From Patescibacteria group bacterium (GTDB taxonomy: Bacteria > Patescibacteriota > JABMPQ01 > JAHIRA01): 32,919 nucleotides of DNA. A program made the translations under genes and the position numbers. The notes beneath the pieces were generated by a model, which did no database searches, had not been told where the DNA came from, and worked only from the letters and a program-made list of their open reading frames with translations. This document shows positions 10,867 through 22,089 of the stretch, piece by piece. Position 1 is the stretch's first letter. Each line of letters opens with the position of its first letter. The DNA lies in assembly GCA_018818205.1 (NCBI GenBank), contig JAHISJ010000019.1, forward strand, positions 1-32,919. Reading direction: 5' to 3'.

Positions 10867-11822
10867 TAGTCTCTGTTAGGTGAAGAAAATTCGTTCTTTT
10901 TCTCTCGATACAGCGTTTCTTCAAGTATTTTTCTGTTCCATCCAATTGCCGATGAAATAAGTGCAAGAACTGCAATTTGGAAGCCAATAATCATGAGCGC
11001 TGAGGCCAAAATGAGAGATTGAATGTGGCCTTCACCGCCCATAGTAATATAATAGTAGAAAAATCTAAGGACCACAATGAGCCCGAGAAGGAATATGGAC
11101 CCACCAATAAAGAGCATGACTCTAAGCGGCTTATAAATCGTGAGAATTCTTAAAATAACAATCAGTGACTTAAAGATATGAACGGGGACGTTGTTAATGA
11201 GTCTTGAGGGACGTTCTACGTTTCTTGCAGGAATATCAATGCAGGCAAGGGCTATACCATGATCATATGCTTGAATGAGCGTTTCGTGTGCGTAGGTATG
11301 ATCGGAAAGGACATTTATTTTAAGTGCCGCATCTCTTGAGTATGCTCTAAAACCTGAGGATGCGTCCACTTTAAGGGGGATACGTGCAATTTTTCTGACA
11401 AAAAAACTTCCAAGCGTATTTCCGAGTTTTTTTGAAAAGGGCATATCTGTAAGCTCCCAAATATTTCTGTTTCCCACAACAATCTCGGCTTTTTTCTTTA
11501 GAATCGGCTCAATAAGTTTAGGGATTTGTGTTTGGTCATAGTGGTTGTCAGCATCGGTGTTTACAATGATATCCGCATCTCGCTTGAGTGCTTCTTCAAT
11601 AGCTCGTTTAAACGTACGGGCGAGCCCCTTGTTTTGAGGCTGAGAAATGACCCAGTCTGCACCTGCTTTTTTAGAAACGGATACGGTATTGTCTTTTGAG
11701 CCATCATCAAGAATAAGGATCTTTACGTCCGTAATACCTTCTATTGACCGCGGGATTTCTTTAATCACTTCCGCTATTGTTTGCTCTTCATTTAGAGCCG
11801 GAATGATTACGACGAGTCGCAT
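10866..11822 (-). CDS. GT2 dolichol-phosphate mannosyltransferase-like protein with C-terminal TM helices
   Basis: VVIIPALNEEQTIAEVI...ILILDDGSKDNT...NTDADNHYD; two C-terminal TM segments. Confidence 0.88.
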   Translation of the reverse strand: MRLVVIIPALNEEQTIAEVIKEIPRSIEGITDVKILILDDGSKDNTVSVSKKAGADWVISQPQNKGLARTFKRAIEEALKRDADIIVNTDADNHYDQTQIPKLIEPILKKKAEIVVGNRNIWELTDMPFSKKLGNTLGSFFVRKIARIPLKVDASSGFRAYSRDAALKINVLSDHTYAHETLIQAYDHGIALACIDIPARNVERPSRLINNVPVHIFKSLIVILRILTIYKPLRVMLFIGGSIFLLGLIVVLRFFYYYITMGGEGHIQSLILASALMIIGFQIAVLALISSAIGWNRKILEETLYREKKNEFSSPNRD

Positions 11823-13272
11823 ATGTCTTGAGATAATGAGGTAACTGTTTTACGTAGAATACCTCTTTTTTGGTAAAAAATTTGAACAGAATAAGAATGA
11901 GTACAAAGAGTGTTAGAGATACACATTGTATCATAAGATCAATGGGAAGCAAGGAGCTTTTGAAAAGTAAATGGACACTGAGGGCTAATGCAGCGGCAAA
12001 GAATGCTATGACGAGTCGCTTCTTTTCATACACAAATGCGTAGTATTTTTGGACCAGCGCTACTGTCAAAATTCCCATAAAGAGGAACGAGATAAACGTG
12101 GTTATGGCTGCTCCTATCATACCATAGGGTGGGACAAGGAGGTAGTTTAGAATAATGTTCAACAGAGCAGGAAAAACAATGAGGATAGGGTAGAGGTGCG
12201 AGCGTTCCTTAAGATGCAAGCCCACCACCACAATGTAGTGAATGCCAAGAAATACGTATGAGAGTGTCACTGGGAGGACAATAATAGATGCGCCCTCGTA
12301 CGCGTTTGTCGCAATAATGCGTATGATATGTGTACTGAAAAAGGTGAAGGTAAGTGCAATAAACAGTGCAATCGTTACAAAGTAGGTGAGTACTCGTCCA
12401 TACATTTTTCTTGCGTCGGGCTTATCTGCAAGCGAAAAGGAAACAGTTGGCCAGGCTAGCTGGAACGGCGTAACAAGCATAATAGCCATGGCAATGCCAA
12501 ATTTGTACGCAAGTGAATACACACCCACCTCTGCAAATCCATGATAGTGATTAATAAAATATCGGTCGATAAGGTCCATAACCCAAAGTGCAAGACTTGC
12601 TGGGATAATAGCAAGACCAAATACCAATAGTTTTTTAAATAGTTTCTTTGAAAAAGTAAACGAAACATTTTTGAAAAAGGTGGGGAGAAGCAAAAGAAGC
12701 GTGATGCTGTTTGCAAGAAGTAGACCAGTCAAAATGCCCTCTATGCCTTTTTTAAAGACTAAAACAAGCGTAACGTTGAGTCCTAAAATAAGAAGAAAGC
12801 GTATAATGTAGATTACCGTGTATTTAATCGACTGTTCATTTGACCGGAGCATAGAAAATCCCAGATTTCCAATAATCAATGCTAAAGCAGAGGCAAAAAT
12901 AATATAGAGGTACGTTGTTTTTCCAAAGTTAAATACTGATGCAATAGGATCTACAAAAAGAGAGAGTATAAGGAGTAGTGTGGTTGCAAAGATAAGTACA
13001 AAAAATACTGCAGTTCCCGCAAGCTTTTTCTTTTCTTTTTCCTTATTTATGTCTCGCTCAGCTGTTTTTATATACGCAGACGCAAATCCCAAAGAAAGGA
13101 CACTCACCAAGATAAGAGAAATGGTGTTTAAGAGCTCGTACTGTCCGTAATCGGCAACAGAGAGTGTTTTTGTGTAAACAGGGATCAAAAGAAGACCCGC
13201 AATTCCTTGAATTCCGGAGCCAATGGCGTAGATAAACGAGTGTTTAGTAAGTCGTTTTAAGCCCTCAATCAT
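11788..13272 (-). CDS. Polysaccharide flippase (Wzx/MOP superfamily)
   Basis: HSFIYAIGSGIQGIAGLLLIPVYTKTLSVADYGQYELL, polytopic; ORF extends to 13308 but ATG 13272 (MIEGLKRLTKHSF) is more plausible. Confidence 0.85.
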   Translation of the reverse strand: MIEGLKRLTKHSFIYAIGSGIQGIAGLLLIPVYTKTLSVADYGQYELLNTISLILVSVLSLGFASAYIKTAERDINKEKEKKKLAGTAVFFVLIFATTLLLILSLFVDPIASVFNFGKTTYLYIIFASALALIIGNLGFSMLRSNEQSIKYTVIYIIRFLLILGLNVTLVLVFKKGIEGILTGLLLANSITLLLLLPTFFKNVSFTFSKKLFKKLLVFGLAIIPASLALWVMDLIDRYFINHYHGFAEVGVYSLAYKFGIAMAIMLVTPFQLAWPTVSFSLADKPDARKMYGRVLTYFVTIALFIALTFTFFSTHIIRIIATNAYEGASIIVLPVTLSYVFLGIHYIVVVGLHLKERSHLYPILIVFPALLNIILNYLLVPPYGMIGAAITTFISFLFMGILTVALVQKYYAFVYEKKRLVIAFFAAALALSVHLLFKSSLLPIDLMIQCVSLTLFVLILILFKFFTKKEVFYVKQLPHYLKTYATRRNHSGSK

Positions 13273-13332
13273 ATACTTCACGGTAGCAGAAAATGGGGGA
13301 CTCGGCAATGATGTGGGAAATCGCGTAGTTTG

Positions 13333-13361
13333 TTGACAAAAGGTAAGATAAATAGTATAAT
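13333..13361 (+). promoter_or_regulatory. Consensus sigma70-type promoter
   Basis: TTGACA (13333-13338), 17-bp spacer, TATAAT (13356-13361), upstream of the 13395 gene. Confidence 0.85.
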
Positions 13362-13394
13362 TATCTGCTTTTTATAAAAACTTTTGGAGGAAGT

Positions 13395-14498
13395 ATGAAA
13401 AAAATACAGTGGATTGTTCCGCTCCTATTTTTGTGTAATTGCATTCAGCATTCAGTGGTTGAAGTGAAAGTTAAAAAAAGTGTACCTATTGTTTCTAAAA
13501 GGAAACTGGTACGTACAAAAAAGGTGCAAAAGCCTTTGAATGTTCGTTTTTATACTGATACAAAAAAGTGTCAGAAAGTTGGCAATTTTGAGCAATGTTT
13601 TACCAAATTATCATCGTATTGTGCAAGCGGCTATAGAGCTACGTTTATCTTACAAAGTAAGCATGTGATGTTTGCTTGTTACGATTGCTGTCCTTCAGAC
13701 TTACTGGTACTTAGAAAGTCATTAACACTTCAAGAAAAAGCGTATAGTTGTGTGTCACGTTTCTTAGGGGTTATATCTAGAAATCATGGAAGAGATGTGA
13801 TGATCAACTTACAACCGGGGAATAGTATCAAACAAGTTGGTGTTGAAAATAAGAAGGGTATTCCTTTGAGAGGGCGGCCTATGGTTATTTACCGACTATA
13901 CCATCTTAAAAAACCCATAAAGATTAAGAAAGGTAAGTGTCAAACAGCGCCTATGCATGTTCGGGTCAATTATGCGACAGCACCGGGGTTTATAGGTTGG
14001 CTGTGTTATGGCAAAAAACGTGTTACCGATACAGATCAAGTGTTTATGGACCTTCATGAGATGGGACACTCGCTTATTGGTATTTCTATGATTAAAGATC
14101 TTCCTAGATGGTTTGAGGAAGGACTGGTAATCCAAATGTCTAACCGAATGAAATGTCATAATTATAGAGGTGATACCTCTGACGGTTCGAATAAATGGGT
14201 TTTACAGTTAAAGAAAGTTTGGAAGCTTCTTAAGAAACGGAAGAAAATTCCCAAGAAGTGGCGTACACTCTTGGGAAAAAAGGATAATCATTTTGTTGGT
14301 AGTCTCTTTTTTGCCGCGTTAGAAGTTGAATTTGGTTGCACACTTGAATGTGCGCGCAAAATTTGGCGTGGGCTTTATAATGAGTATTTTGTGAAGCGCT
14401 ACATTAAGCTTGATAATCGTAAAATTCGTGAAATTGTTGAGCGCGTTGTTAAAAATAAAGGGCGTGTTCGCAAGATCTTTAGGAGGTTAGGATTATGA
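13395..14498 (+). CDS. Putative lipoprotein with zincin (HEMGH) metallopeptidase-like motif
   Basis: GGAGGA SD; signal peptide and Cys (LFLCNC); HEMGHSLIGISMIKDLPRWFEEGL (HExxH...P.WxxEG gluzincin pattern); Cys-rich. Confidence 0.75.
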   Translation: MKKIQWIVPLLFLCNCIQHSVVEVKVKKSVPIVSKRKLVRTKKVQKPLNVRFYTDTKKCQKVGNFEQCFTKLSSYCASGYRATFILQSKHVMFACYDCCPSDLLVLRKSLTLQEKAYSCVSRFLGVISRNHGRDVMINLQPGNSIKQVGVENKKGIPLRGRPMVIYRLYHLKKPIKIKKGKCQTAPMHVRVNYATAPGFIGWLCYGKKRVTDTDQVFMDLHEMGHSLIGISMIKDLPRWFEEGLVIQMSNRMKCHNYRGDTSDGSNKWVLQLKKVWKLLKKRKKIPKKWRTLLGKKDNHFVGSLFFAALEVEFGCTLECARKIWRGLYNEYFVKRYIKLDNRKIREIVERVVKNKGRVRKIFRRLGL

Positions 14499-15598
14499 AA
14501 AGTACTGTGTGGCTAAAAGCAGCACTTCTGTTTTTTATTATTGCGCATGTCGATTCTGTCTATGCACGTTCACGTAAAATTGTGCTGGTACAGCGTAGTG
14601 TGGATAGTACTTGTAGGGGCGTTCAGAGAAGATTTGAGAGTGAGTTCAAAAAATCGTTTCGATCACACACTATTAACGTTGTTCGGTTTTCTTCGCTTTA
14701 CAGGATTTCTGGCAATAACAGTAGTATGTTTGTTGCTCGGATGAATCGCCAGTATCGAAAGGGTTTTAGATTTGTTGTTGAAGCAGATTGTCGTGATGAA
14801 CAAATGGATTCAGTTGTTGCACATAACGTATTGTTTGTTCGAGTGCATAAAATGAATCAACTCGGCGCACTTTCTGTGTTGTTTGCTGGAATCGGTTTTT
14901 TGCGAGTGCCTAGTGAAGATGATTTGCACTTCTTTAAGAAGAAATACAATTTATCGTTTCACCATTCTTCTCGTATTCCAGATTTCTTGAAATATCTTAA
15001 GCATTATTTTAGAACTGGCAAGAATCTAAAAGTTCAGAGAATTACTGGTTCACAAAAGCATTCCGTATCACAGAAAAAATATAGAGTGACGACCAAGATT
15101 TTAAAGAAGAACATTGTTAAACGTCTTCCCTTTGGCTTAGATGTAGCATTTGTTATGTATACGCCACTTGTAGGGATTTCTACTGCGATAGGTCTTCTTT
15201 TGGGCGGTCTTAATCTAAGGTTGTTTGTGAGAGACGAATGGTTTGTAGAATTTGGTGCTCTTTTTGGGAAGTCAATCAGTGACTACTATAGTTATGGGTG
15301 CGATATTGGTGCAGGCTATCGTTTTGTATTATTTAGAACTATAAGTGATGCTGAGATTGCCGTTTCGCCAGTGCTTAATTACCGAGGCTTTTTTGTAACA
15401 AAGTCAGGGCCTGGCATGTTGTATACCATGCACCATATTTTTGCAGCAGCTGAGATTGCTTTGGAGGTTGGTTCTAATCTACGCTTAAAAGTATTTTTTT
15501 CTCTGGGGATTGGTCCGGGATTTTACTTAAGAAGGACGTTGTATGGAGGCTTCTCTACATTGGTATTAGGAAAGATTGGGCTAAGTCTGTATTTCTAA
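14495..15598 (+). CDS. Exported protein with N-terminal globular domain and predicted C-terminal beta-barrel (barrel paralog 1)
   Basis: ATGA overlap with the previous gene; SD TAGGAGG; signal peptide; alternating C-terminal strands ending GLSLYF*. Confidence 0.7.
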   Translation: MKSTVWLKAALLFFIIAHVDSVYARSRKIVLVQRSVDSTCRGVQRRFESEFKKSFRSHTINVVRFSSLYRISGNNSSMFVARMNRQYRKGFRFVVEADCRDEQMDSVVAHNVLFVRVHKMNQLGALSVLFAGIGFLRVPSEDDLHFFKKKYNLSFHHSSRIPDFLKYLKHYFRTGKNLKVQRITGSQKHSVSQKKYRVTTKILKKNIVKRLPFGLDVAFVMYTPLVGISTAIGLLLGGLNLRLFVRDEWFVEFGALFGKSISDYYSYGCDIGAGYRFVLFRTISDAEIAVSPVLNYRGFFVTKSGPGMLYTMHHIFAAAEIALEVGSNLRLKVFFSLGIGPGFYLRRTLYGGFSTLVLGKIGLSLYF

Positions 15599-15611
15599 CA
15601 AAAAATTATTT

Positions 15612-15642
15612 GGTCTACTCTATTTTGTGGTAGGCCTTTTTT
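15612..15642 (+). terminator. Rho-independent terminator of the 13395-15598 operon
   Basis: GGTCTAC-tctattttgtg-GTAGGCC followed by TTTTTT. Confidence 0.7.
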
Positions 15643-15684
15643 GTTCGCAAAAGATGATGGATCTATTATTATCTAGAATATGCC

Positions 15685-15712
15685 TTGACTCCCTATGTTT
15701 TTTTGCTACTAT
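15685..15712 (+). promoter_or_regulatory. Putative promoter of the structured RNA
   Basis: TTGACT (15685-15690), 16-bp spacer, extended -10 TGC-TACTAT (15707-15712). Confidence 0.6.
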
Positions 15713-15718
15713 CTACAT

Positions 15719-16147
15719 CAGTGATTATTTAGCATTCCTTAATTTTTTGACCATTTGGTCTCAATAAAACTAGACACGGAATGCTAAATTATCAAAAGAG
15801 TGAGTGGAATAAGTGCTGCAGAAAGGATTGGCTTTGTGTTAGAACGAAAGCCTCAAAAATCATCGTTTTGAACGAGCAGCACGTGGGGTTTGTTTTTGGG
15901 AGAAGTAAGGCAAATGTTTTTTCAAACTGCAAAAACAATGCTTAACAGGGAGAACACCACCCACCAGCTTCATGAATGTCGTGAGAATACACGAGAAGAA
16001 AGGCATTAAGGCAAAAGACATAGACATTCACTGAAGCTGTAAATAAAGGTCGCCTGACCACGACCAACTTGTGCCGTCCTGGCATACAAATCACTCTTTT
16101 GATGAATATCATTTGCCCGAGACACCTAGTGTTTTGGGCTTTTTTTT
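15719..16147 (+). ncRNA. Candidate large structured noncoding RNA, family not recognised
   Basis: No ORF in the supplied track in this gap; promoter at the 5' side; many complementary helices listed in the findings; strong intrinsic terminator at the 3' end. Confidence 0.7.
16115..16147 (+). terminator. Strong intrinsic terminator of the candidate RNA
   Basis: GCCCGAGACAC-CTA-GTGTTTTGGGC (11-bp stem with G-U pairs) followed by 8 T. Confidence 0.9.
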
Positions 16148-16154
16148 ATGCAAA

Positions 16155-16208
16155 TAAAAAACCTACTACATTTGCAAGAATCATCAGTGATCTCAGGTGT
16201 GGTAGGGG
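16155..16208 (-). terminator. Possible terminator of the minus-strand MopE/LamG gene
   Basis: Minus strand CCTACCACA...TGTAGTAGG-TTTTTTA, one mismatch and a long loop. Confidence 0.45.
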
Positions 16209-16214
16209 TAATTA

Positions 16215-17606
16215 TTAATGATAATATCTGAGCTTGTACAAAACTGATATTTCTTTATCCGTTAACGCTCTGCTTAAATAAATAATGCTTCTGTATCGAG
16301 CTTTCATGTGGTTGTCAGTGTATACCCCAGTTTTTGGATCCCAAGAAATATACATATAAGAAGATAGTGGGGCTGGGCTACATTTGATGTTTATTGCAGT
16401 GCCATCAAGTGTACCTTCAACATAAAATTTAATCATTGGGGTTGCTTTGTCATATACATAGGCAAAATGTATATGTTTGTTAACCTGAAACAACGTCGGT
16501 GCGCTGCTGTCCGTCCCCTGGCCACAAGATCCAACGTACTTTTTTGACCGGTGACTAAGGTTTAACGAAGTTCCAGGTGATCGAATAATGAATGATGCTC
16601 CGCTTGTGGGTACGCTTGTTACGTATGCAAAGACTATAATTGTAAAGGATTCTACGCTTGTCGTTTGAAGGGGAGAAATGTTGGTAATAACCGCGTATCC
16701 TTTGGTAGAAGTATCGAAATATGCTCTAGATAAATATGTTTTAACTACACCACCATTTTTAATAATAGCGTGTTTTCCTTTTCCAGAAATGTCCGGAATT
16801 TTCGTGGTGTCCTTTTGATCTGGGATCAAAAGAAATTCTAGCGCGGAGCAGTTAGCTTCATCTGTTTGACCATCACAATTATCATCGATTATGTTCCCAC
16901 AGATTTCAACACCATAGCTGCCACAGCATTTTCCATAGATACACATCTGAGAGCCTTTGCAGACGTTTCCACAGCTTCCACAGTTATTCTTATCTTGCTG
17001 CAAATCAAAGTCTTCATCTGTTTGACCGTCGCAATCATTGTCTTTCCCATCGCATGTTTCAGTTTTGGGGTAGGTTATCTGAAGGCAGGCCAGAGTTCTA
17101 TTAACACATGTGAAGGCTGCATCAGAGCAGATACCTGGAGTTCCGGTTTTGCAAGGTTTTCCAATTAATGGGCTAAACTTTTCACATGGGCCATCATCTT
17201 CAGGCTTGGGAAGTATCTCCTGCGAGGGTTCTTTTTCCGGTAATTGCGTTTCTTCTGAAATGGTCTTTCTTTCTGAATACTCTGAATGCTCAATCTCAAT
17301 TTCTTTGGGAATTTCCTCTGGAAGTACGCTTGCATCATGTAAGTCAGAAACATGTTCATCTTTGAGTTTCTCGTGCTTCTCATGAGAATATTCAGTGATT
17401 TTTTCAGGCTTTGTGTTTTCTTCATTCAAGACTTCTTGAGAAGTCTCTTGTGTAATTAAACGAACACAAGAATTGTCTTTGGTACAATACTGAAATAGGG
17501 GGCAGTCGTCATGATAAACACACTCAGGTTTTTTAGGAGGATCTGCACAATTGAGCGTAAGAAGAAAAAGTAGAGTACTGACGTACAAAAAAACAGTTTT
17601 TTTCAT
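16215..17606 (-). CDS. Lipoprotein with MopE-like Cys/Asp repeats and C-terminal LamG/concanavalin-like domain
   Basis: ATG 17606 (MKKTVFLYVSTLLFLLTLNC) after GGAGGGAGAC; CDGKDNDCDGQTDEDF and DDNCDGQTDE; E/K/S-rich linker; LamG-like C-terminus. Confidence 0.82.
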   Translation of the reverse strand: MKKTVFLYVSTLLFLLTLNCADPPKKPECVYHDDCPLFQYCTKDNSCVRLITQETSQEVLNEENTKPEKITEYSHEKHEKLKDEHVSDLHDASVLPEEIPKEIEIEHSEYSERKTISEETQLPEKEPSQEILPKPEDDGPCEKFSPLIGKPCKTGTPGICSDAAFTCVNRTLACLQITYPKTETCDGKDNDCDGQTDEDFDLQQDKNNCGSCGNVCKGSQMCIYGKCCGSYGVEICGNIIDDNCDGQTDEANCSALEFLLIPDQKDTTKIPDISGKGKHAIIKNGGVVKTYLSRAYFDTSTKGYAVITNISPLQTTSVESFTIIVFAYVTSVPTSGASFIIRSPGTSLNLSHRSKKYVGSCGQGTDSSAPTLFQVNKHIHFAYVYDKATPMIKFYVEGTLDGTAINIKCSPAPLSSYMYISWDPKTGVYTDNHMKARYRSIIYLSRALTDKEISVLYKLRYYH

Positions 17607-17738
17607 GTCTCCCTCCAATTTGAGAGTAAAAGAATAACAGAGTTCGTAAGGTGATTTATATTATGGGACGTTTTACCAAAAAAATCAAGAGTATTGATTA
17701 TTTAAAATGTCATAAAAATAGAAAAGCCTCTATCGTTC

Positions 17739-17767
17739 TTGACACAGGGCTTATATAAAGTTATATT
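17739..17767 (+). promoter_or_regulatory. Near-consensus sigma70-type promoter
   Basis: TTGACA (17739-17744), 17-bp spacer, TATATT (17762-17767). Confidence 0.8.
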
Positions 17768-17800
17768 AAAGAGCTTCTTTTACACATTCTGGAGGGATTT

Positions 17801-19318
17801 ATGAAATATTGTTTTATCACCACACTATTTTTTCTACACACTTTTGGGTTTGCTTTTGCAAAGAGTAACCCTACATCTAAGAGGGCATTTTCTGCTATCC
17901 CGCTTACTATTTTGCAGTTTAACGGATCACATAAGTGTCCAATTGTTCATGAGGAGGCATTAGTACAAATTTTGAACGTATATGCATATTTTCATCCTGA
18001 TTTTAAGCGAGGTAAACACGCTGTTAAATTGCGTTTCAAAAGTGCTAAAAGTCGCTATAAACAAGAAAAAGCTCGACTAAAAGAGCTACTTTCTAAAAAG
18101 GATCGTGCATTTATTCGTGAGACAAAAAAACTTGAGAAACGTTGGACAGATAAAGGGCAAGAGCAGCAATACCAGAAGCTCGAGCAAGCGCATATGCGCT
18201 TTTATATTGCCTATCCAAAAATGTTCAACAAAAATGTAGAGCAGCTTGAGCGTGCAACTTTTGCAAGGAGACTGGCGCTTCTGAGAATCGGACTCAAAGT
18301 TATGAAGAATTCCGTTGTTGTACTAAAAGACTGGGAAAACTCTGCAGATTATATGCGCAATAAATTACGTGAACACGCAAAAAAGGGTATGCGCTATTTT
18401 TACTTGATGCATTGTGCACCATCTGCGTCGACGCACATTCTAACGATGTATTTTGCAGAAATGATTGGGACGGACATGTGGCGACCACTTACTCCCAAGC
18501 GAGCATTTTACTTTGGATCACAGGTAATCTTAAAAAGTGATCCTACCTTTTATGAGAAAAAACGTTGGTTGGTACACATAGTTAATAAAGGAGACATTCT
18601 AGCAATAATGTCTACGAGATCCTTAAAACTTAAAAATGTCTCAAAAAAGACCAGGAGTGATAGGAACGACGGAAATTTTGCTCATTTTAGGGATGCGTAC
18701 TGGAGAAAGTATCGTGTACAACTTATGTCTACGCTGTTAATACCACTTTTTGCTGACCGTACAGCGGCATTTGCAAAAAATGGTAAGAAAAAGCCATTAC
18801 GCTTTGCCGCAGACTCGAGGCCGCTTTCTGGGCTTTTAAGAGAGAAATCGAATGGATACTGGTCACTGCATGCAGAATCGACATTACTTGGTGATATTCT
18901 TTCTCCTAAATATACCTTTGCTATTCATGGAGGGCTCGGGCTGTATCTCACATTAAATACCTCTTTTAGTTTAAGTGTAGGCGTTGGCTTTGGGGATGGA
19001 TTTGGAAGAAAAGGGCTGAGAGTTATCTCATATATTGGTACGTATAGCTTTTTAGGGCAATTGTCGTTTTTTGAGTTCAATTTTCACACACGTTTTTATG
19101 TGTCATTGAGACTAAGCACAGGGAAAATTAGAGAGACCATGTATGCACTTGTGGTAGGGCCAAGGCTTAGTATTGATCCTGCTTTGCTTTTTAAAAGGCG
19201 AAGTAGGATGCGTGTGCGTCTTATGAGTCTGATTGGACCTGCTCTTAGACGTAAAACGAGTACATTAGATGCTGGATTTCTTTTTGTTGCGCTTGCTGGG
19301 TTAAGCTGGCAGTTTTAA
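17801..19318 (+). CDS. Exported protein with predicted C-terminal beta-barrel (barrel paralog 2)
   Basis: SD GGAGGG; signal peptide MKYCFITTLFFLHTFGFAFAK; C-terminus alternating strands ending LAGLSWQF*; similar to the 19651 gene product. Confidence 0.75.
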   Translation: MKYCFITTLFFLHTFGFAFAKSNPTSKRAFSAIPLTILQFNGSHKCPIVHEEALVQILNVYAYFHPDFKRGKHAVKLRFKSAKSRYKQEKARLKELLSKKDRAFIRETKKLEKRWTDKGQEQQYQKLEQAHMRFYIAYPKMFNKNVEQLERATFARRLALLRIGLKVMKNSVVVLKDWENSADYMRNKLREHAKKGMRYFYLMHCAPSASTHILTMYFAEMIGTDMWRPLTPKRAFYFGSQVILKSDPTFYEKKRWLVHIVNKGDILAIMSTRSLKLKNVSKKTRSDRNDGNFAHFRDAYWRKYRVQLMSTLLIPLFADRTAAFAKNGKKKPLRFAADSRPLSGLLREKSNGYWSLHAESTLLGDILSPKYTFAIHGGLGLYLTLNTSFSLSVGVGFGDGFGRKGLRVISYIGTYSFLGQLSFFEFNFHTRFYVSLRLSTGKIRETMYALVVGPRLSIDPALLFKRRSRMRVRLMSLIGPALRRKTSTLDAGFLFVALAGLSWQF

Positions 19319-19332
19319 AAGGAGAGAAAATA

Positions 19333-19491
19333 ATGAAAAGAGCATTTGTACCTCTTATTATTGGCTTAGCTGTTTATTTCTTGTCAAGTTTCCTGTATAT
19401 TGTCGTTGAAGTTGATCGAGAGTTTCTGAAAAAAAATAATGTTATGTGGTGTTTGGATACTTTTTGCAGTTCTATTTATGATTGTGAATAA
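19333..19491 (+). CDS. Small single-TM protein (52 aa)
   Basis: SD AGGAGAG; MKRAFVPLIIGLAVYFLSSFLYIVVEVDREFLKKNNVMWCLDTFCSSIYDCE*; shorter than the smallest ORFs listed in the supplied track. Confidence 0.6.
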   Translation: MKRAFVPLIIGLAVYFLSSFLYIVVEVDREFLKKNNVMWCLDTFCSSIYDCE

Positions 19492-19502
19492 AACTTTGTG
19501 CG

Positions 19503-19535
19503 AATGGGTGATCTTAATCTAGGTCACCCATTTTT
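19503..19535 (+). terminator. Rho-independent terminator
   Basis: AATGGGTGA-tcttaatctagg-TCACCCATT followed by T tract. Confidence 0.8.
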
Positions 19536-19582
19536 GATACCAAAAAAAGAGCTGTGTGTACTATAAAAAATCTTGTTATATT

Positions 19583-19617
19583 TTCACGCTTGACTATATA
19601 GAAAAAAGATGGTACAT
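19583..19617 (+). promoter_or_regulatory. Putative sigma70-type promoter of the 19651 gene
   Basis: TTGACT, 17-bp spacer (ATATAGAAAAAAGATGG), TACATT. Confidence 0.65.
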
Positions 19618-19650
19618 TATGGAGCTTTTTTGAAAATAACAGGAGGGATT

Positions 19651-20790
19651 ATGAGATACACTTTTTTTCTTAGCATCATCATCTGTATTTTTTGTTTCAA
19701 TTCAAGCAATTCCTTTGCGAAAAAGAACATTGTTGGGATTATGTATTTTGTGCACAAAAGTATTCGTAAGGAACCCGATATCTGTAGAGGTCTTATTGAT
19801 CGATTTGTGAAAACCGTTAAAACAAGATTGCCATTTCATACTATTAAATTGGTGCGGTCGTGGGAGATTGGAACGAGTGTTTTAAAGCACATTAGAGATT
19901 TAAATCTGCAGGGAATGAAATACTTCTTCACCGTTAAATGCAGTGTTATATGTAATTCACGCGCACTTACTGTTTCTCTTAATGTGGTACCAAGGCCATG
20001 TTGGATAGAGGTCACCCTTGGTAGTAGAACGTGGAAATGCAAGATTGAGTATAAAACAACCACTGCTGCATATTATTTTGGTGACAAGCACGGGATTCAA
20101 GGTGGACTTAAAGCAAAAAAATCTACTTACAACTATTTTGGTGTAAAAGTAAGAAAGATGGCTTTAGAGCAGTATCACAAGTTGAGAAACGTGTATGCCA
20201 GTCGGTACAACTTGCCACTCTATCCGCCAGAGCAACTTTCACGAGACATTGGTTATATGGCGGATTTAATTACGGGAAGACGAGACTCATACGATCTTAT
20301 CTTGACGCGACATATGAGCAAATGTGGCATGTCACTTCTTGCGGTTGGTTTTGCTGACACGCTTAAATTACAGTCGTATCACTCGCTTTCTGGAATGCTT
20401 GAGGTATATTATATTCTGGACAGAAACGTTACATTACGATTTTCTTTTGGAGTAGGCGAGGGGCTTAAAAATAGGGGAGTCAGGACGCAGTTTTTTGCGG
20501 GTGTTTCATACTTAATTTTTGAGCGGTGGCGCAGCGGCTTTCAGCTTAATGTTGGCCTTTTGTATACTGGTCAACTTGCGTTTTCCCAAACCAAAGTTAG
20601 GTTTCATTTGCATGGTGTTCTTGTGGGGCTTGAAGCGTCTTTAGATCCTGCAGTACTTATTAATAGAGACAGTTCGTTTCGATTATCACTTAGAACAATT
20701 ATTGGACCTGGTGTACGTATCGGTAGCACAGGAATGCCGTATTTTGCATTGCCAGCGAGTGCATTGTTTGGTCTATCATATCAGTTTTAA
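19651..20790 (+). CDS. Exported protein with predicted C-terminal beta-barrel (barrel paralog 3)
   Basis: Start reassigned from 19609 to ATG 19651 (SD AGGAGGG); signal peptide MRYTFFLSIIICIFCFNSSNSFAK; C-terminus ends ALFGLSYQF*. Confidence 0.75.
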   Translation: MRYTFFLSIIICIFCFNSSNSFAKKNIVGIMYFVHKSIRKEPDICRGLIDRFVKTVKTRLPFHTIKLVRSWEIGTSVLKHIRDLNLQGMKYFFTVKCSVICNSRALTVSLNVVPRPCWIEVTLGSRTWKCKIEYKTTTAAYYFGDKHGIQGGLKAKKSTYNYFGVKVRKMALEQYHKLRNVYASRYNLPLYPPEQLSRDIGYMADLITGRRDSYDLILTRHMSKCGMSLLAVGFADTLKLQSYHSLSGMLEVYYILDRNVTLRFSFGVGEGLKNRGVRTQFFAGVSYLIFERWRSGFQLNVGLLYTGQLAFSQTKVRFHLHGVLVGLEASLDPAVLINRDSSFRLSLRTIIGPGVRIGSTGMPYFALPASALFGLSYQF

Positions 20791-20821
20791 CTCACAGTAC
20801 CGTGTACTTGTGAGTTTTTTG
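20789..20821 (+). terminator. Rho-independent terminator
   Basis: AACTCACAGTAC-CGT-GTACTTGTGAGTT (12 bp, one bulge) followed by T tract. Confidence 0.85.
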
Positions 20822-20925
20822 TTTTTCGCAGAAAAAGTAGCATTCTATCGTATTCTTGTAGTAAGTATTTCATATCTGTTTTAATGTGATAAAATTACCA
20901 TAGAGATTAACACTAGTGATTTTCT

Positions 20926-22089
20926 ATGAACATACTCATATTTAACATGAGTTCGTATTCTGAGTGGACAAAAAAAGACATTCCCAATAGGAATCGTCAT
21001 GTGCTTTTTGAATTGCTAAAAAGACCCGATGTAGAAAAAATTGTATCAGTCGATTTTATGCCGTTTACAAAAAAGAGAGCACTCCGCATGTATATGGAGG
21101 ATTTTTTCCATGGTGATGGTGAGGTGATTTCAAAAACTGCCTTTGATGTCTTGAGGAAGGTAAACAAGAAGCTCTATATCTATACTTCGGTAAGATCCGC
21201 ACTTTTTAGTGAAGATGCCTTTTATGCTCATTTAAAGAAAAGGCTTGAGAAGATTGATATGAATACCTTTGTTTTGTGGTCATATTTTCCGTATTATGTG
21301 GGTTATTTTGACTACTTTTCTTCCGCACAAAAAAAGGTCTTTGATACGGTTGATGATTGGAGTAAACATCCAAATTTTTCTGAAAAAAAAGAACAGCTTG
21401 AAGCAAATTATAAAACCATAGATAAAAAAGCAGACGTGGTATTTACGGTGTCTGAAAAACTTAAAGATATCTATCCAAGCAACAATAATGTTCATTGGAT
21501 ACCAAATGGGGTTGATTTTGATCATTTCCAAAAGAAAATAGACAAAGAAGACGAGGTAATAAAAAGACTTAAAGAGATTAAAGAACCACGGGTAGCGTAT
21601 GTTGGTATTATTCAAAAGCGAGTTGATTTTGAGTTGGTTGCTCGCGTTGCAAGGATGAACCCACGTGTCTCTTTTGTGTTCTTTGGCCCTCTTTGGCCAG
21701 ATGCAGAGGATGAAAAAGTGCGGAGTTTAGACAATGTGCATTTGCTTGGTCCGGTGAGATACGGTATGTTGCCAAAAGCGCTCAGTTTATGTAGTGTAGG
21801 CATGATTCCTCACGTGGTAGATGCGTTTACTGACACTATGAATCCGTTAAAGATGTACGATTATTTAGCAACTGGTCTTCCTGTGGTAACTACTTCAGTT
21901 GCAGGAGTAGGGAAGTATAGTGATGTAGTAACGGAAGCTACAAGCACTGAGGCGTTTAGTAGTGCAGTGCAACATGCGATTTTGTATTCTAAAAATGAAC
22001 ATATGCAAGACAAGAGACGAGAAGTAGCAAAAAAATGTTCGTGGAATCGTACGGTCAATGCTATGATGTCAGTAATTAAAGACACTTAA
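20926..22089 (+). CDS. GT4-like glycosyltransferase
   Basis: VFTVSEKLKDIYP...NVHWIPNGVDFDHF...AYVGIIQKRVDFELV...GMIPHVVDAFTDTMNPLKMYDYLATGLPVVTT. Confidence 0.87.
   Translation: MNILIFNMSSYSEWTKKDIPNRNRHVLFELLKRPDVEKIVSVDFMPFTKKRALRMYMEDFFHGDGEVISKTAFDVLRKVNKKLYIYTSVRSALFSEDAFYAHLKKRLEKIDMNTFVLWSYFPYYVGYFDYFSSAQKKVFDTVDDWSKHPNFSEKKEQLEANYKTIDKKADVVFTVSEKLKDIYPSNNNVHWIPNGVDFDHFQKKIDKEDEVIKRLKEIKEPRVAYVGIIQKRVDFELVARVARMNPRVSFVFFGPLWPDAEDEKVRSLDNVHLLGPVRYGMLPKALSLCSVGMIPHVVDAFTDTMNPLKMYDYLATGLPVVTTSVAGVGKYSDVVTEATSTEAFSSAVQHAILYSKNEHMQDKRREVAKKCSWNRTVNAMMSVIKDT

Follow-up and report, generated by a model that had tools for sequence, protein, structure and literature searches.

We analysed a 32,919-nucleotide stretch of DNA (GCA_018818205.1, contig JAHISJ010000019.1), hereafter called the window, which is an entire 32.9-kb contig (C29) from the genome of a Patescibacteria group bacterium (G000; 1.41 Mb, 29 contigs, 97% complete, contamination estimate 1.1%). 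Sampled genomes of the same phylum measure 0.5–1.4 Mb, with one 2-Mb exception. Inside a polysaccharide locus the window carries an island of six genes, which the original prediction had described as a zincin lipoprotein, a MopE/LamG lipoprotein, three proteins with terminal Phe and a small membrane protein amid glycosyltransferase genes. All six open reading frames (ORFs) and both flanks were confirmed, and every ORF is intact (Table 1). On the left side the island is bordered by a flippase gene (PF01943) and genes for glycosyltransferases of families GT4 and GT2, on the right side by GT4, GT2, Wzy_C and DUF4012 genes; DUF4012 and glycan genes are typical of Patescibacteria. No long flanking repeats, no tRNA and no integrase ORF were recognised at the island. 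Gene starts were called heuristically.

Table 1. Island genes, putative regulatory sites and bordering genes in the window.
Feature	Position	Strand	Leader	Remarks
Polysaccharide flippase (Polysacc_synt), left flank	11788..13308	-		resident glycan locus
Perfect sigma-70 consensus promoter TTGACA-17-TATAAT, 12/12	13333..13361	+		upstream of zincin gene
Zincin-like lipoprotein, 367 aa	13395..14498	+	GGAGG	Cys after N-terminal hydrophobic stretch LLFLCNC; HEMGH and WFEEG
Secreted protein A, 367 aa	14495..15598	+	AGGAGG	predicted C-terminal beta-barrel-like domain, end GLSLYF
Candidate structured non-coding RNA, ~430 nt	15719-16147	+		extended -10 promoter-like site 15685-15712; intrinsic terminator 16115-16139
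MopE-repeat/Laminin_G_3 lipoprotein	17606-16215	-	GGAGGG	lipobox LTLNC, acidic linker; ATG at 17606
Promoter-like site TTGACA-17-TATATT	17739..17767	+		upstream of protein B
Secreted protein B, 505 aa	17801..19318	+	GGAGG	predicted C-terminal barrel-like domain, end GLSWQF
Small membrane protein, 52 aa	19333..19491	+	AGGAG	one hydrophobic segment
Promoter-like site TTGACT-17-TACATT	19590..19618	+		TG before -10; upstream of protein C
Secreted protein C, 379 aa	19651..20790	+	AGGAGG	ORF opens 19609, ATG at 19651; predicted barrel-like C-domain, end GLSYQF
GT4 glycosyltransferase, right flank	20926..22089	+	none	no Shine-Dalgarno leader

Two of the products are predicted lipoproteins. The putative protease takes its name solely from the motif HEMGH...LPRWFEEG, in which HExxH is followed by a downstream Glu as in gluzincins; no convincing Pfam family, no PDB sequence match and no homology to a known peptidase family were found for it. 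The second lipoprotein passed the Pfam cut-offs both for MopE (PF11617, E 2.4e-9, 37.7 bits, cut-off 27) and for Laminin_G_3 (PF13385, E 1.1e-7, 32.5 bits, cut-off 27.6). The lipidation enzyme Lgt is encoded twice in the genome (C25:23166 and C21:83111), so that the lipoproteins can be anchored. One of these two Lgt genes is divergent, in a small genome. The residue directly before the lipobox Cys is frequently Asn (LNC, CNC, SNC) in island lipoproteins of G000 and of the related genome G001 (window 13395-14498 and 16215-17606; L006 16717-18762; L025 14565; L022 3865) and Gly in most other G000 lipoproteins.

Proteins A, B and C all end in GLS[YWL]xF and match GxxPhixF, the C-terminal signal recognised by the beta-barrel assembly machinery (BAM), where Phi is aromatic (PMC13067283). 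At position -3 we found Leu in A, Trp in B and Tyr in C; in C23b, a protein of a second island of the same genome, it is Val, which is hydrophobic but not aromatic. Gene-level statistics for G000 refer to 202 sampled genes, 16 of them from both islands together with a second MopE gene and 186 from elsewhere. Of the 202, five combine GxxPhixF with a hydrophobic position -5: three in the window island, two in the second island and none among the 186. B and C have a C-terminal domain of 133 residues in common, homologous by hhalign (95.7%), to which A is only weakly similar, and none of the three has a convincing family match in Pfam. The C-domains show a two-residue periodicity with z values of 3.5 (A), 3.4 (B) and 4.8 (C), compared to 3.6 for the transmembrane domain of E. 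coli OmpA and 1.4 for OmpX. Most soluble controls lie near 0, but the C-terminal part of DUF4012 reaches 2.6, and the test is hence not specific. An AlphaFold2 (AF2) model of the C-domain of protein C has about eight strands, at low confidence (pLDDT 60). When it was compared with the PDB by Foldseek, the top hit by probability among the matches listed was NspA (0.94, TM 0.58/0.59, E 0.49), followed by OmpW (0.84). A model of full-length protein C was not good enough for comparing folds, and the matches it returned were meaningless. A–C appear to carry C-domains resembling small outer-membrane barrels, with the terminal signal seen in the sequence and the fold a low-confidence prediction.

Insertion of such proteins would need an Omp85 protein such as BamA. 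Our Omp85/BamA search gave 0 matches in G000 and in 34 other Patescibacteria; 7/14 control genomes and 3/3 Myxococcota-type genomes were positive. An unusual envelope, in which this lineage possesses an outer membrane of its own, had been one of three options in the original prediction. It would account for barrel-like proteins with terminal Phe and for the lipoproteins, but given the missing Omp85 (genes for lipopolysaccharide, Lpt and Lol were not searched) and the treatment of the group as monoderm (PMC11665869) we regard it as exceedingly improbable. Barrel-like C-domains were also seen in secreted proteins adjoining or near MopE genes of other Patescibacteria for which no Omp85 was found: L082 10183-10977 (genome G115, end TGWTF) and L079 6635-7786 (G176, end LGFSL).

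The sharpest foreign sign of the island genes is their leader. GGAGG or AGGAG precedes the ATG in 5/5 island genes of the window versus 12/186 other sampled genes (Fisher p 3e-6). By an automatic rule applied to both islands and the second MopE gene, 10/16 have the leader (p 1.5e-7). Starts checked by hand show it in the second MopE gene, in most genes of the second island, in the MopE gene of G001 and in 6/7 island genes of another relative, G005. The MopE gene of a third relative, G003, has the similar GGGGAG. Genes flanking these loci do not share the leader. Among other sampled genes the leader was present in 1/11 (G005), 0/9 (G003) and 0/3 (G001). More distant Patescibacteria have it in 6/16 MopE-type genes versus 7/101 others. 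Other secreted proteins and lipoproteins of G000 mostly do without a strong leader. Because native genes with the leader exist, it is presumably readable in this cell (the 16S anti-Shine-Dalgarno sequence itself was not seen). Start regions in G000 are A-rich, and Shine-Dalgarno leaders are rarely used there. Promoter-like sites in the region number 38 versus 28.2 expected by chance (standard deviation 5.9), a modest excess, and island genes often end with an intrinsic terminator.

The island is not a single occurrence. A second, longer one (G000:C23:2982-16853, locus L025), also located between GT-type genes, encodes three Cys-bearing secreted proteins, of which two end in VEYWF and LRVGF, as well as Cys-rich lipoproteins. 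It further contains DUF7107 repeats and a paralogous lipoprotein pair at 14565 and 15789, and its codon usage is deviant. A second MopE/LamG gene is found in another glycan locus (C23:56725-58.6k), with 56–66% identity to the window copy (63–66% in the LamG part). Counting the window island, G000 would hold three or more insertions of this kind. In the C23 glycan locus (L006 10242-11451) the ORF of a nucleotide-sugar epimerase stops abruptly just before the ORF of an IS200-like transposase.

The nearest genomes compared belong to other genera. MopE is present in 5/7 sampled genomes of the order versus 37/380 sampled across the phylum (hypergeometric p 1.2e-4), and the MopE genes of G001, G003 and G005 adjoin GT2, ugd/rml or metK genes orthologous to C23 genes. 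In G005 a single block (G005:C102; L023 1-10303), beside ugd and metK, combines several lipoproteins with a C-type-lectin MopE protein; the block further includes a subtilase-like protease fragment, a MopE-LamG protein and a 378-aa protein ending in RFALSF. When the LamG part was used as a pattern against the genome collection, all matches were to the MopE motif. Only three LamG-domain sequences were obtained, too few for a tree. In the literature we found no paper linking MopE with the Candidate Phyla Radiation (CPR).

An assembly or binning chimera, with diderm DNA fused to contigs of a Patescibacterium, could explain the diderm-type gene content and the foreign leaders on one of 29 contigs of a metagenome-assembled genome (MAG). 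The island, however, lies inside the contig between CPR-type genes, the contamination estimate is 1.1%, and other genomes have MopE genes in similar loci. Because another contig carries a further island and a further MopE/LamG copy, MopE occurs in 5/7 genomes of the order, and codon usage and GC match the flanks, we consider a chimera highly unlikely.

The codon usage of the window island (z -0.97) and its GC content at third codon positions (GC3) are those of the genome, so that a transfer would lie far back or have come from a donor of similar GC. In the second island codon usage (z -4.15) and GC3 deviate, and the MopE gene of G003 has a GC3 of 0.73 versus 0.46. These values bear on the alternative of an old native secretome, that is, lineage-specific Patescibacteria surface proteins whose likeness to diderm proteins arose by convergence and an ancient MopE transfer and whose strong leaders reflect high expression. 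The ameliorated codon usage of the window island, the occurrence of MopE across the order at syntenic ugd/rml loci and the lack of outside homologues for zincin and barrels agree with it. We nevertheless judge it unlikely, considering the deviant second island and G003 gene, the missing leader in most other secreted proteins and lipoproteins of G000, and the barrels, a family found in G000 only among 116 genomes, i.e. in none of 115 relatives. The original prediction had held that homologues widespread in the same CPR clade would speak against a foreign island; such a spread is seen for the MopE lipoprotein within the order but not for the barrels.

For the donor, the island had been described as myxobacteria-like. 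MopE repeats match in 129/361 genomes from the phylum to which a Myxococcales MAG belongs. The zincin and the barrels lend no support to a myxobacterial origin in particular: the zincin matched in 0/379 genomes of that phylum, and the barrel profile had 0 matches in 10 named genomes. A diderm, Shine-Dalgarno-using donor is supported; Myxococcota as the donor is only a lead.

Taken together, we propose, with a probability of roughly 60%, that the island is a resident block of secreted-protein genes which a monoderm Patescibacterium obtained horizontally and has retained in its capsule/glycan locus, the source being a Shine-Dalgarno-using diderm with a Myxococcota-type secretome. Of the three options originally offered, transfer from a diderm fits best, in light of the foreign-type leaders, the outer-membrane signals without BamA and the MopE repeats in Myxococcota-type genomes. 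Competence, described for the phylum (PMC11665869), may have been the entry route of diderm DNA. The genes would bring promoter-like sites of their own along with strong ribosome-binding sites and, in many cases, an intrinsic terminator; with their signal peptides the products would be exported via Sec, and Lgt would lipidate the zincin-type protease and the MopE/LamG protein. Both lipoproteins probably lie at the outside of the cell's only membrane, inside the glycan coat encoded by the surrounding genes. We infer that, so displayed, they may help the cell to contact, bind or digest a neighbour, with LamG/MopE as the likely binding module. Proteins A–C, which carry a diderm export signal but would find no BAM for insertion, are most likely donor carry-over cargo or released surface proteins.

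Several observations weigh against this reading. The barrel fold comes from a model with a pLDDT of 60, and its Foldseek E values of 0.1–0.9 are not significant; no donor homologue was found, for the zincin in the 379 genomes of the Myxococcales-MAG phylum and for the barrels in the 116 genomes and the 10 named genomes; and the window island does not deviate from its genome in codon usage or composition. The block might also be non-functional cargo, i.e. diderm DNA, from a host or from prey, that was taken up by competence, integrated and not yet lost. Several unrelated secreted proteins in one place, the patchy distribution and the absence of a machinery for barrel insertion would fit, but intact ORFs with genome-like codon usage, the preserved frames, promoters and leaders and the spread of the MopE lipoprotein across the order make this quite improbable.

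Alternatively, the barrels could be made for another cell, being exported by the Patescibacterium and inserted by the BAM of a diderm host into the host outer membrane. Five proteins do retain the BAM-recognised GxxPhixF in a genome with no detectable Omp85. We see no dedicated export route, though, a protein from outside cannot reach the periplasmic BAM without delivery, and simple carry-over explains the signal, which renders this very unlikely. Action in a host outer membrane is possible but, beyond the preserved signals, unsupported. Less probable still is the stronger version that a BamA-less epibiont keeps barrel genes with intact BAM signals as they act in its host: delivered there either as proteins or as genes equipped with host-type promoters and Shine-Dalgarno leaders, the barrels would be inserted by the host's BAM and remodel the host surface.

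If acquisition from a diderm is the true reading, the island may point to a Gram-negative host or prey with which the cell is in contact. The hosts of most Patescibacteria are unknown, and diderm-type surface genes would provide a simple genomic marker of lineages touching Gram-negative partners; they could be spotted by their Shine-Dalgarno leaders and BAM signals, both of which are rare in the rest of such genomes. They would also raise a testable question: of what use are outer-membrane barrels to a cell without BamA?

Between gene A and the MopE gene lies a candidate structured RNA. The stretch 15715-16145 folds at -139 kcal/mol (z -7.06), and the frame read contains stops. The element belongs to no Rfam family and no homologue was found in 192 genomes; DNA matches elsewhere were short chance matches, save a terminator-like hairpin common to two genomes. 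A hairpin core, ACACCTAGTG (window 16122-16132; L007 3186; L086 1503; L087 1519), is repeated in a number of Patescibacteria genomes, where it is probably part of terminators.

With known systems the island shares several traits. Like Myxococcota-type MopE-repeat lipoproteins (PF11617, often with LamG or lectin domains), the window protein has a signal peptide with Cys, DxDC, an acidic linker, CDGxDNDCDGxxDE repeats and a LamG end; unlike them, its gene lies in a Patescibacteria glycan locus, and its best outside matches span the MopE repeats, rarely LamG. Barrels of the NspA, OmpW and OpcA type resemble A–C in about eight long antiparallel strands (modelled at low confidence for protein C), alternating hydrophobicity and a GxxPhixF end, but in A–C the domain is fused behind an N-terminal domain of 200–350 aa, has no sequence family match and occurs in a genome in which no BamA was found. 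Gene transfer into Patescibacteria has been reported (PMC12455944), there too with foreign genes from co-occurring bacteria, diderms included. The donors in that case were, in contrast, bacteria such as Omnitrophota and Bacteroidota and the functions mainly information processing; Myxococcota, outer membrane and glycosyltransferase are not mentioned.

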